Below are positions 15,607 to 19,945 of a stretch of DNA of 64,000 nucleotides, in pieces. Under the pieces are notes generated by a model. That model was given only the letters and a program-made list of their open reading frames with translations. It ran no database searches and was not told the DNA's origin. Both the position numbers and the translations under genes were made by a program. This stretch comes from Aureimonas sp. AU12 (GTDB lineage Bacteria; Pseudomonadota; Alphaproteobacteria; Rhizobiales; Rhizobiaceae): NCBI RefSeq assembly GCF_001463705.1, contig NZ_BBWH01000044.1, positions 1 to 64,000 of the forward strand, written 5' to 3'. The first letter of the stretch is position 1. Each line of letters begins with the position of its first letter.

Positions 15607-16572
15607 TCAGCGCTCGCGCAGCGTCTTCATCACGAGGAAGGTCGCGGACGCTCGGTTCTCGACTCCGAGCTTGGCGAAGACGACCTCGAGATGCTTGTTC
15701 ACGGTGCGCGGGCTTAGCGTCAGGATCTCGGCGATGTCGCGGTTCGACTTGCCGCGCGCCAGCCAGAGCAGAACGTCGGCCTCCCGCGCCGTCAGCGGGA
15801 AATGCTGGCGCAGAAGCGCCTCGTCGCCGGCCGAATCATCGGCCGTCAGCCGGAAGAGATGCTCGTCTTCGCCGACCTTGCCGAGGAACGAGAGCTGCAG
15901 CTCGGTGCCGGCGGGCGAGGGCAGGGCAATGGGTGCGGGGGGCGCGCCCGAGCCCGCGCCTTGACTGAGCCAGATGCGCAACGCCTCCGGCAGCAGCATC
16001 GCGCCATCCGCGCTCGGAAGGGCGGTCTGCAGCAGGCGCGTCGCCTGCGGCGTCGACCAGAGCACCCGGCCTGCCCCGTCCGTCGCCAGAAGGAAGCGTC
16101 CGGCGGTGTCGAGCGCGGCGCGGGCGCTCTGCGCGGAGCGCGCATTGGCGAGATGGACGCGGATGCGGGCCAGAAGCTCGTCCGGCACGATCGGCTTCGT
16201 CACGTAGTCGACGCCGCCGGCCTCCAACCCCTTTACGACGTGCTCGGTGTCGGTGAGGCCGGTCATGAAGATCACCGGCACATGGCGAAGCGCCGCGTCC
16301 GCCTTCAACCGGCGCGTGGTCTCGAACCCGTCCAGGCCCGGCATGATCGCATCCATCAGCACGACGTCGGGCGTTACATGGCCGGCGATGCCGAGCGCCT
16401 GCTCGCCGTCGAGCGCCACGAGCACAGTGGCCCCGGACTGCTCGATCGCATCGGTGAGCATGCGCAGCGTATCGGGCGAATCGTCGACGACGAGGATGAT
16501 GTCGCGTTCCCGGCCACCCCCAGTGGCTCGGCTACCCACGGTTGCCGCGCCGCCCCCCGGCGCGTCACTCAA
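15607..16572 (-). CDS. Two-component response regulator, receiver + LuxR-type HTH
   Basis: A 321-residue DNA-binding regulator. Residues about 25-140 form a receiver with acidic pocket VVDDSPD, phosphoacceptor aspartate near residue 72 in DVVLMDAIMPG and the conserved lysine in DYVTKPI. A middle region (about 145-250) is PAS-like in composition, and residues about 255-315 are a LuxR/NarL HTH (LTAREADVLLWLARGKSNRDIAEIL, within 20-residue limits: LTAREADVLLW and RTVNKHLEVVFAKLGV). Its ATG overlaps the end of the sensor-kinase gene by 8 bases, so the two are a cognate pair. The likely target is the divergent urea-transport promoter, judged from position and the palindrome there. Confidence 0.9.
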   Translation of the reverse strand: MSDAPGGGAATVGSRATGGGRERDIILVVDDSPDTLRMLTDAIEQSGATVLVALDGEQALGIAGHVTPDVVLMDAIMPGLDGFETTRRLKADAALRHVPVIFMTGLTDTEHVVKGLEAGGVDYVTKPIVPDELLARIRVHLANARSAQSARAALDTAGRFLLATDGAGRVLWSTPQATRLLQTALPSADGAMLLPEALRIWLSQGAGSGAPPAPIALPSPAGTELQLSFLGKVGEDEHLFRLTADDSAGDEALLRQHFPLTAREADVLLWLARGKSNRDIAEILTLSPRTVNKHLEVVFAKLGVENRASATFLVMKTLRER

Positions 16573-19500: not shown

Positions 19501-19945
19501 GCGGAATGCCGAAGGCGAGCTCCAGCGCGGCCGTCATGATCGAGGCTTCGACCGCGAAGAGGATGAAGGTGAAGGTGGCGTAGATCAGCGAGGTGATGGT
19601 CGAGCCGATGTAGCCGAAGCCCGCGCCGCGCGTCAGGAGATCGATGTCGACGCCGTATTTCGCCGCATAGTGGCTGATCGGGATGCCGGTCAGGAGCAGG
19701 AGAATGCCGACCACGACGATGGCGGCGGCGGCGTTGGTGAAGCCGAAGGAAAGGGTGATCGCACCGCCCACGGCCTCCAGCGCCAGGAAGGAGATGGCGC
19801 CGATCGCGGTCTGCGACACGCGCGGCGCGGTCCAGCGGCGGGCCTTCTTGGCGGTGAAGCGCAGCGCGTAGTCTTCGAGCGTCTGGTTGGCGACCCAGCG
19901 ATTGTACTCGCGCCGGACGGGTAGGATGCGCTGCCGCCCTGTCAT
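16565..19945 (-). CDS. NCS1-type transporter fused to hybrid sensor histidine kinase
   Basis: A 1126-residue membrane protein. Residues about 1-490 are a full NCS1 (nucleobase:cation symporter-1) domain of about twelve hydrophobic segments, opening with the RQRILPVRREYNRWV and NQTLEDYALRFTAKKARRW type N terminus. Residues about 499-540 are cysteine-rich (C-x2-C, C, C-x2-CC, C, C pattern), probably metal binding. Two more membrane segments (about 565-625) lead to a coiled linker, a HisKA domain with phosphorylated histidine in SHELRTPLN near 680, an HATPase domain (NILSNAVKYT near 802) and a receiver with aspartate in LFLLDIQMPG near 970, then a short helical tail. It likely senses or carries a nucleobase, hydantoin, allantoin or urea-like compound. 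The ATG at 19945 (MTGRQRILPV) is chosen over an upstream extension. Confidence 0.88.
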   Translation of the reverse strand: MTGRQRILPVRREYNRWVANQTLEDYALRFTAKKARRWTAPRVSQTAIGAISFLALEAVGGAITLSFGFTNAAAAIVVVGILLLLTGIPISHYAAKYGVDIDLLTRGAGFGYIGSTITSLIYATFTFILFAVEASIMTAALELAFGIPLWLGYIISAVAVVPLVTHGVAWISRFQLLTQPMWIVLNILPVGFILWQDWGSLDAWVNFPGLDDPAGANALDILKFGAAASVILALMPQIGEQVDILRFLPAQEGKPSRSWWFALFSAGPGWIVLGAPKLFFGSFLAVLALRSGVAPEHASEPAYMYDIAFGFVLPSPVAAAVLTAAFVVVSQLKINVMNAYAGSLAWSNFFSRLTHSHPGRVVWLVFNVAIALLLMELGIYGALEVTFGLFANVAVAWLGAIVADLAINKPLGLSPKGIEFKRAHLYDLNPVGLGSMGLATLISLIAFGGWLGETAEALSAFVALGVAMITAPLIAYATDGRYYLARKPRTAWKDRVEIDCSICEHAFEPEDMAYCPAYAAPICSLCCSLDARCHDLCKPHARFSAQVASAAHATLPTTVARRINSRLGHYLGGLTLLAAIISIVLSIIYYQAILASPDDTEVIAKALWAAFFILLIVAGISTWFFVLAQESRRVAQEESARQTTLLLKEIEAHRRTDAALQSAKEMAEAASLAKSRYVVGMSHELRTPLNAVLGYAQLLEQDAAIPPAKVGGIRVIRRSAEHLSGLIDGLLDISKIETGRLQLQRGEVQLADFLAQLVDMFALQASAKGLDFRFNRPAVLPETVRTDEKRLRQILINILSNAVKYTERGSVTFDVAYRSQVATLTVTDTGPGIAADELARVFEPFERGSAARGKAPGLGLGLTITRLLANLMGGDVKVESTAGLGSRFEVKVMLSAVAGSNGRAAAKTAEPAEPVRGYRGARRTILVVDDDETHRDLMVEVLRPVGFIVLTAADGPTALSLVAEIRPDLFLLDIQMPGMDGWTLARTLRAGGQSGAILMLSATLADTPLVPAEEDLVVQGMVPKPFDLRQLTARIRDTLDIEWTSAAEEDAKARPAPAAPIVAPSPEHVAELLQLGRIGYVRGIEQKLAALEADPIIRPFAEDLRVHVRNFDLKRFVAVLEAIGVE

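Follow-up and report, generated by a model that had tools for sequence, protein, structure and literature searches.

The stretch analysed here, referred to as the window, comprises positions 1 to 64,000 of contig NZ_BBWH01000044.1 of Aureimonas sp. AU12. It carries a gene for a hybrid sensor histidine kinase with an N-terminal permease domain of NCS1-type fold, followed by the gene of a LuxR-type response regulator, and the sensor gene is divergent from urtABCDE (Table 1). The sensor gene reads as one frame of 1126 codons on the minus strand, from an ATG at 19945 to a stop at 16567-16565, and the frame stays open upstream to a GTG at 19984. It is no chance frame, since its sensor half is matched in 54 of 398 genomes of the phylum at E ≤ 1e-10, a few of the matches being partial. 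UrtA to UrtE all exceed their NCBIfam curated cut-offs and thus constitute a true Urt urea ATP-binding cassette (ABC) transporter, and only one urtA over the cut-off is present in the 4.67-Mb genome.

Searches of Pfam, NCBIfam and the PDB sequences with the sensor gave a name to its kinase half alone. HisKA, HATPase_c and receiver domains are all present in that half, and the adjoining regulator is of the REC plus GerE type, which together make up a hybrid kinase with its partner. The sole Pfam match in the first 660 residues is a sub-threshold one to DUF6526 (E 0.0036) on two extra helices, which are predicted at residues 566-595 and 597-668 in an AlphaFold model. A first-pass annotation, made from the letters of the window, had described a single 1126-codon fusion beside urtABCDE, with two further helices before the kinase and an 8-base overlap with its regulator; the coordinates, the domain models and the predicted secondary structure agree with it on each of these points.

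Table 1. Features of the sensor-regulator locus and the adjoining urt operon in the window
Feature	Position	Strand	Basis and remarks
Response regulator, REC + LuxR/GerE helix-turn-helix	15607..16572	minus	Pfam; TTG start, 8-base overlap with the kinase gene
Hybrid sensor histidine kinase, N-terminal NCS1-fold permease domain	16565..19945	minus	1126 residues
Receiver domain (Response_reg)	16838..17173	minus	residues 925-1036; Pfam PF00072 E 6.1e-21, over cut-off
HATPase_c	17267..17590	minus	residues 786-893; Pfam PF02518 E 1.5e-25, over cut-off
HisKA	17729..17926	minus	residues 674-739; Pfam PF00512 E 4.5e-14, over cut-off
Two further predicted helices 5' of the kinase part	18050..18250	minus	residues about 566-632; AlphaFold secondary structure, hydrophobic by eye
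Eight-cysteine cluster	18335..18448	minus	residues 500-537, CxxC-x11-C-x7-CxxCC-x5-C-x3-C; low model confidence
NCS1-fold permease domain	18491..19828	minus	residues about 40-485; Foldseek CodB 7qoa/Mhp1 2jln, CodB alignment
Dyad TACGTCATTTAACGTA, proposed operator	20019..20034		de novo; exact TACGT-N6-ACGTA
urtA	20116..21423	plus	TIGR03407, 557.8 bits (cut-off 492.75)
urtB	21538..23220	plus	TIGR03409 over cut-off
urtC	23217..24302	plus	TIGR03408 over cut-off
urtD	24377..25240	plus	TIGR03411 over cut-off
urtE	25237..25938	plus	TIGR03410 over cut-off

Relatives of the sensor are widely distributed. The sensor half was also matched in 36 of the 121 genomes of the family and in 26 of the 385 genomes of the class (as in the phylum draw, the window's genome is included and a few matches are partial). 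Matches to it at E ≤ 1e-5 were obtained in 532 plasmid records, 342 of them from Klebsiella and with kinase-less relatives among those counted; the plasmid regions that were read belong to alpha-, beta- and gammaproteobacteria. Among the best 80 of 513 contig stretches encoding some relative (the 513 may include unrelated kinases), the closest named relative is that of Aureimonas pseudogalii, at 94%. Partner genes were counted at 169 sensor loci, the window included, with urtA sought within 12 kb. It was found at 147 of them, so that the genomic link to urt genes, whose absence would have counted against the first-pass annotation, is conserved; at 165 loci, a regulator match on the same strand is found no more than 2.7 kb from the sensor half. 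The 147 consist of 96 loci with a urt-type urtA, 48 where formamidase accompanies a second type of urtA (fmd-type), and three with the second type alone. The remaining 22 loci include seven with urease and no counted urtA, three with formamidase only, one with a kinase-less paralogue, and 11 with none of these. The last group contains four loci at the ends of contigs or stretches (L047, L093, L098 and L209; L numbers denote loci), two short and apparently broken genes (L121 and L175), a kinase-less Rhodococcus permease picked up by the sensor query as well (L131), and four apparent orphans (L104, L166, L167 and L169). At L104, urtA was later located immediately outside the stretch first read, some 10 kb away from the sensor, and three orphans remain. 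The broken genes and the Rhodococcus permease stay within the 169 loci and are excluded from the residue counts, which cover 166 fused proteins, or 167 once L231 is added.

The composition of the sample matters for these counts. The best 80 relatives are mostly from Rhizobiales sharing descent, with 76 urt-type loci and four with no partner. The 70 stretches taken with their flanks from the class and phylum draws, a subset of the matches there, are less redundant and comprise 39 fmd-type, 13 urt-type and seven urease loci, two with the second-type urtA only, two with fmdA only, five with none, and two without a counted sensor. The partner operon is therefore often a formamide/amide cluster or urease, which suggests urea plus short-chain amides as the theme of the system. 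Two variants of gene order were seen along the way. In Rhizobium, a large gene, by eye a PAP2-type phosphatase, stands between urtA and the sensor (L044, 7939-9975; L084, 5987-7900). On an IncF plasmid of Klebsiella variicola typed as conjugative (L126, 7909-18252), the sensor, a regulator match, urtABCDE and formamidase lie together as one cassette, and the dyad described next is identical to that of the window.

A 16-bp dyad with the consensus TACGTCAWWTGACGTA, of the form TACGTC-N4-GACGTA, precedes many of the partner genes. Its core, TACGT-N6-ACGTA, was recovered de novo and is exact in 18 of 21 dereplicated gaps between sensor and urtA, with the best dyad of 20 shuffles reaching at most two. 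The window copy, the only exact one in its genome, is centred 89.5 bp 5' of the urtA ATG and 81.5 bp 5' of the kinase ATG. Where the starts of sensor and urtA lie within 420 bp of each other (45 loci), 36 copies are exact and 43 are within one mismatch (shuffled mean 0.3). Where the two genes are more distant (51 loci), the dyad goes with urtA rather than with the sensor (41 versus five loci, or 16 versus four of 25 after dereplication). Of 144 matches in 3.61 Mb of loci, 132 fall in the 3.5% of bases within 350 bp upstream of a sensor or partner gene, and the dyad centre lies at a median of 96 bp before urtA (quartiles 92-108, n = 115). Eight sites precede fmdA, and one-mismatch copies stand before a kinase-less permease in Acinetobacter (L130, L237) and, at about 150 bp, before an amidase in Methylovirgula (L231). 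At L104 the dyad was spotted before urtA was known there, and the site led to the gene; the genomes of L093 and L098 have urtA on another contig, again with an exact dyad. Shared descent of one promoter would not account for the occurrence of this dyad in front of fmdA, an NCS1 permease and the second-type urtA alike. The dyad was not met in any paper of the open-access literature searched. A sigma-54 promoter was also considered for the gap between sensor and urtA and rejected: TGGC-N7-TGC is absent, and the weaker GG-N10-GC occurs twice per strand, which is chance level.

The tie between dyad and sensor was measured in the 121 genomes of the family, by reading about 500 bases upstream of each urtA that exceeded the curated cut-off (84 genes). 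When one mismatch is allowed, the dyad precedes 31 of 40 urtA genes in sensor-positive genomes and none of 44 in sensor-negative genomes; exact copies number 26 and zero, respectively. At the level of genomes, the form with inner C and G occurs in 19 of 36 sensor-positive versus four of 85 sensor-negative genomes, and a control pattern read backwards occurs in six of 36 versus nine of 85 (P = 0.37).

The analysis thus establishes in silico the architecture, its conservation, the synteny and the association of the dyad with presence of the sensor. Taken together, the gene pair is probably a two-component system that responds to urea and short-chain amides and controls their import and hydrolysis, and the proposal of the first-pass annotation that the pair controls urea import finds support in the conserved synteny and in a urtA dyad confined, in the family test, to sensor-carrying genomes. 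Several observations weigh against this reading. The family genomes are related to each other, so the P value of that test (2.9×10−15 at one mismatch, Fisher's exact test) overstates their independence, and nine of the 40 urtA genes from genomes with the sensor, some being second copies of urtA, have no dyad before them. Across the wider sample, a dyad within one mismatch is missing at two of the 45 close and 10 of the 51 distant urt-type loci, 22 of the 48 fmd-type loci, two of the three loci with the second-type urtA only, all seven urease-only loci and all three fmdA-only loci. The intact sensors at L166, L167 and L169 have none of the partners sought in about 9 kb on both sides. Finally, a one-mismatch scan of the window's own genome gave eight places, the exact copy of the window included, versus 18 for the backwards-read control, which offers no basis for calling a wider regulon.

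How the pair would work is suggested by its N-terminal half. Residues 1-669 were modelled with AlphaFold from 43 aligned sequences (mean predicted local distance difference test, pLDDT, 70.7; predicted template modelling score, pTM, 0.70), and the best PDB folds for the model in Foldseek are CodB (7qoa, E 1.3e-8) and Mhp1 (2jln, E 7.3e-8); the top five matches are all CodB or Mhp1, which have a LeuT-type fold, with SLC5 members lower in the ranking. The NCS1 transporters form family 2.A.39. Their Pfam model, PF02133, has no match across the window's genome at E ≤ 1e-3 or in the sensor protein up to E = 10, and searches of the PDB sequences with two sensor relatives found no NCS1 structure. A relative with 26.6% identity to the sensor (tblastn E 5e-18) does exceed the PF02133 cut-off (5e-10). 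The fold call therefore rests on the AlphaFold model and on this relative, and the NCS1 label of the first-pass annotation, taken as a statement about the modelled fold and not about the Pfam family, is correct. In the mechanism that we favor, a permease akin to a subfamily of kinase-less urea/amide permeases in which the Na2 threonines of CodB are missing would bind or slowly carry the ligand, and its conformation would be passed through a cytoplasmic cysteine module and the two-helix hairpin to HisKA and HATPase. Phosphate would then be relayed by the fused receiver to the partner regulator of LuxR type, which is expected to bind the TACGTC-N4-GACGTA dyad about 90 bp upstream of urtA. The outcome for urtABCDE would most likely be activation rather than repression, and in relatives fmdA, an amidase or a kinase-less permease would be controlled as well.

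The cysteine module lies between the permease and the kinase, where the first-pass annotation had suggested a possible redox or metal gate, a role that it may have. The first-pass annotation had counted eight cysteines in about 40 residues; they are at positions 500, 503, 515, 523, 526, 527, 533 and 537, and the pattern it had singled out is conserved, with all eight kept in 167 of 167 fused proteins. They are also present in three fusions of a second type (L114, L207 and L208; 886-899 residues), which have the same permease and two helices, a different kinase that is NtrB-like by eye, no receiver, and a location near fmdA without the dyad. The cluster is not specific to kinase fusions: C500, C503, C523 and C526 are kept in kinase-less permeases of Acinetobacter, Klebsiella and Moraxella, two Streptomyces kinase-less permeases have these four plus C515, and one from Methylovirgula has all eight. 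In four other actinobacterial kinase-less permeases, C503, C523 and C526 are jointly lost and C500 is retained. Because the three are lost together, they suggest one four-cysteine site, with the remaining four as a second; C515 in Streptomyces indicates that the second set was not acquired as one block. We infer that the two sets are metal sites, presumably on the cytoplasmic side. The region has a pLDDT below 50, no structural conclusion being drawn from it, and against the PDB sequences it gave only chance-level matches to two cysteine-rich chains (E 4.7 and 6.2), the second of which we take to be a zf-HIT domain.

The strict conservation of the cysteines raises the strongest competing explanation, namely that the pair does regulate urea/amide genes while the cysteine module, by redox or metal, or other cytoplasmic parts do the sensing, the permease being an anchor or side transporter. 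A sensing role of the permease domain is not a given, since the SLC5 domain of CbrA is reported, in the accessible part of one account, as not essential for signal perception (PMC9100948). We regard this explanation as unlikely, because the permease residues E57, E133, E240, D243 and K333 are as invariant as the cysteines, and because the cluster also occurs in kinase-less permeases and hence is not dedicated to kinase signalling. E57 is present in all 166 fused proteins in which the position is covered, whereas the 16 kinase-less proteins have F, L or Q there, and E133 and D243 are kept in every fused and kinase-less protein compared.

The partner genes themselves point to the nature of the signal. 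A sensor tree was built from 71 rows dereplicated at 80% identity (L209 and two near-copies left out), with seven labels comprising the partner types, none, other and standalone, and with a second-type urtA lacking formamidase labelled fmd-type. The labels require 14 changes on this tree, the minimum possible being six, and well-supported branches force at least six changes for urt-type, five for fmd-type and three for urease. The sensor thus stays while its partner switches among urea, formamide/amide and urease genes, so the signal should be one common to them, and urea and small amides would fit. The kinase-less relatives keep similar company, seven of nine annotated loci adjoining urease, formamidase or amidase. 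Urease genes adjoin them on two Acinetobacter plasmids (the Acinetobacter permease is 41% identical to the sensor) and in Klebsiella, fmdA and an fmdB-like gene in Moraxella and Tsukamurella, and an aliphatic amidase in Arthrobacter; one Streptomyces and a second Arthrobacter locus have no urease, formamidase or amidase partner. In Methylovirgula (L231, 6941-8590) an eight-cysteine kinase-less permease directly follows the sensor-regulator pair and is flanked by formamidase and amidase, and in Acinetobacter baumannii (L130, an unannotated record) a kinase-less permease is divergent from the sensor at the usual place of urt, with a one-mismatch dyad between them. A tail-less NCS1 relative in Pantoea (L132) adjoins a nitrilase-type hydrolase. 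At the Klebsiella locus, in a Klebsiella pneumoniae record (L227, 525-8563), the urease genes are followed by a kinase-less relative annotated as a cytosine permease, which is a candidate urea permease.

The same diversity bears on the idea that the kinase is in physical contact with the neighbouring transporter and monitors its activity in this way, for which BceS-type flux sensing is the comparison. Close linkage with transporters would suit such an arrangement, which is nevertheless improbable: the partners are unrelated (urt-type versus fmd-type ABC systems, with the UrtA of L113 only 41% identical), an NCS1 permease takes their place at L130 and L231, and urease occurs with no Urt match in 20 kb at L198, L205 and L212.

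What the permease may bind was approached by mapping the pocket through a sequence alignment to Escherichia coli CodB, at 17.7% identity. According to the accessible part of the CodB study, Thr278 and Thr279 are Na2 ligands and Trp108 stacks on the substrate (PMC9379551). In the sensors, T278 corresponds to K333 in 167 of 167 and T279 to I334 in 166 of 167, and W108, in the third transmembrane helix, is replaced by L in 98 and by F in 69, so that neither the Na2 ligands nor the stacking residue is retained. Because these residues are replaced, a small, non-aromatic ligand is probable, and the Na2 site probably holds no sodium. This bears on the view that a nucleobase, hydantoin or allantoin, the canonical NCS1 substrates, is what the kinase detects, with urt as a downstream nitrogen operon. 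The NCS1 fold would be in line with that view, as would the annotation of some kinase-less relatives as allantoin or cytosine permeases. A nucleobase ligand or a Na+-dependent mode is disfavored by the replaced tryptophan and threonines, and no nucleobase-catabolism gene was noticed in the annotated neighbourhoods that were read, in which no systematic search for such genes was made; the view is highly improbable. The first-pass annotation had allowed for either a urea-like or a nucleobase ligand; the urea-like theme is upheld by the neighbouring genes, and the nucleobase option is not upheld by the pocket.

The least probable of these alternatives is an inherited gene order without regulation, with the dyad belonging to another factor: sensor, regulator and urt could move as a block, and three sensors lack a sought partner and part of the loci lack the dyad, but the dyad remains in front of urtA even with the sensor as much as 10 kb away or on a different contig, is missing from all 44 urtA promoters of genomes without the sensor, and is also found before fmdA and a kinase-less permease.

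With a two-component system responsive to urea and short-chain amides as the preferred reading, we tentatively propose, with somewhat less than even confidence, that the sensor may represent an undescribed class of transceptor kinase. It would combine an NCS1 urea/amide receptor without Na2 threonines and a two-site, eight-cysteine metal module, as one lineage rewired many times among urea ABC, formamide/amide and urease genes and its own kinase-less paralogue, controlled for the most part through a single 16-bp operator. If so, the sensor would be a dedicated receptor for urea and small-amide uptake, and would account for how urt/fmd operons are regulated in many Proteobacteria, Klebsiella plasmids included. 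With the transporter-kinase fusion, its kinase-less relatives and a predicted operator at hand, the change from transporter fold to receptor would be directly testable. Elsewhere in the window, a probable sulfate/thiosulfate ABC transporter operon, judged from the translations by eye, is situated past the regulator (11623-15603).

No paper describing the fusion or its control of urt was recognised among those listed by searches of open-access literature. Clusters of urtABCDE and fmdA are noted in the accessible parts of 2026 genome papers on Pseudomonas veronii (PMC13209695) and Ectopseudomonas guguanensis (PMC13296017), and the latter has LuxR-family two-component genes beside one urtABCDE, with a hybrid histidine kinase named in a legend (PMC13296017). 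The operons are of the same kind as here, and the permease domain, the cysteine module, the dyad and regulation by the pair are not described in those parts (PMC13209695, PMC13296017).

Among known systems, the SLC5/STAC kinases CbrA, CrbS and RpuS likewise have a transporter domain fused to a histidine kinase, and RpuS and a CrbS homologue are hybrid kinases, as is the sensor here, according to the accessible text of PMC9100948. The same text has RpuS controlling a pyruvate symporter, with a LuxR-type partner regulator in a predicted common operon, again as here, that acts on the transporter gene through a DNA motif; the RpuR site is an imperfect direct repeat, whereas the dyad is an inverted one (PMC9100948). 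SLC5, STAC and PAS are absent from the Pfam matches of the sensor up to E = 10 (for STAC, subject to Pfam containing a model of it), and the sensor has instead an NCS1-type fold, an eight-cysteine module, two extra helices and a urea/amide neighbourhood. Judged by its domains, it resembles the SLC5/STAC kinases in kind and is not a member, having no SLC5/STAC domain. A second comparison is offered by an ammonium sensor kinase, presumably of the Ks-Amt5 type. This is also a transporter-kinase fusion concerned with a nitrogen nutrient, its transporter domain being of the Amt type, in contrast to the NCS1 fold here, as far as the available portion of its description goes (PMC5764959). CodB, Mhp1 and MetT share the fold type of the sensor domain. 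MetT, likened here by description and not by sequence, is an NCS1 member that takes the non-heterocyclic substrate metformin, according to the accessible part of its report (PMC13390362). Compared with CodB, the sensor has no PF02133 match, has given up the Na2 threonines and the stacking tryptophan, and has added a cysteine tail and a kinase.

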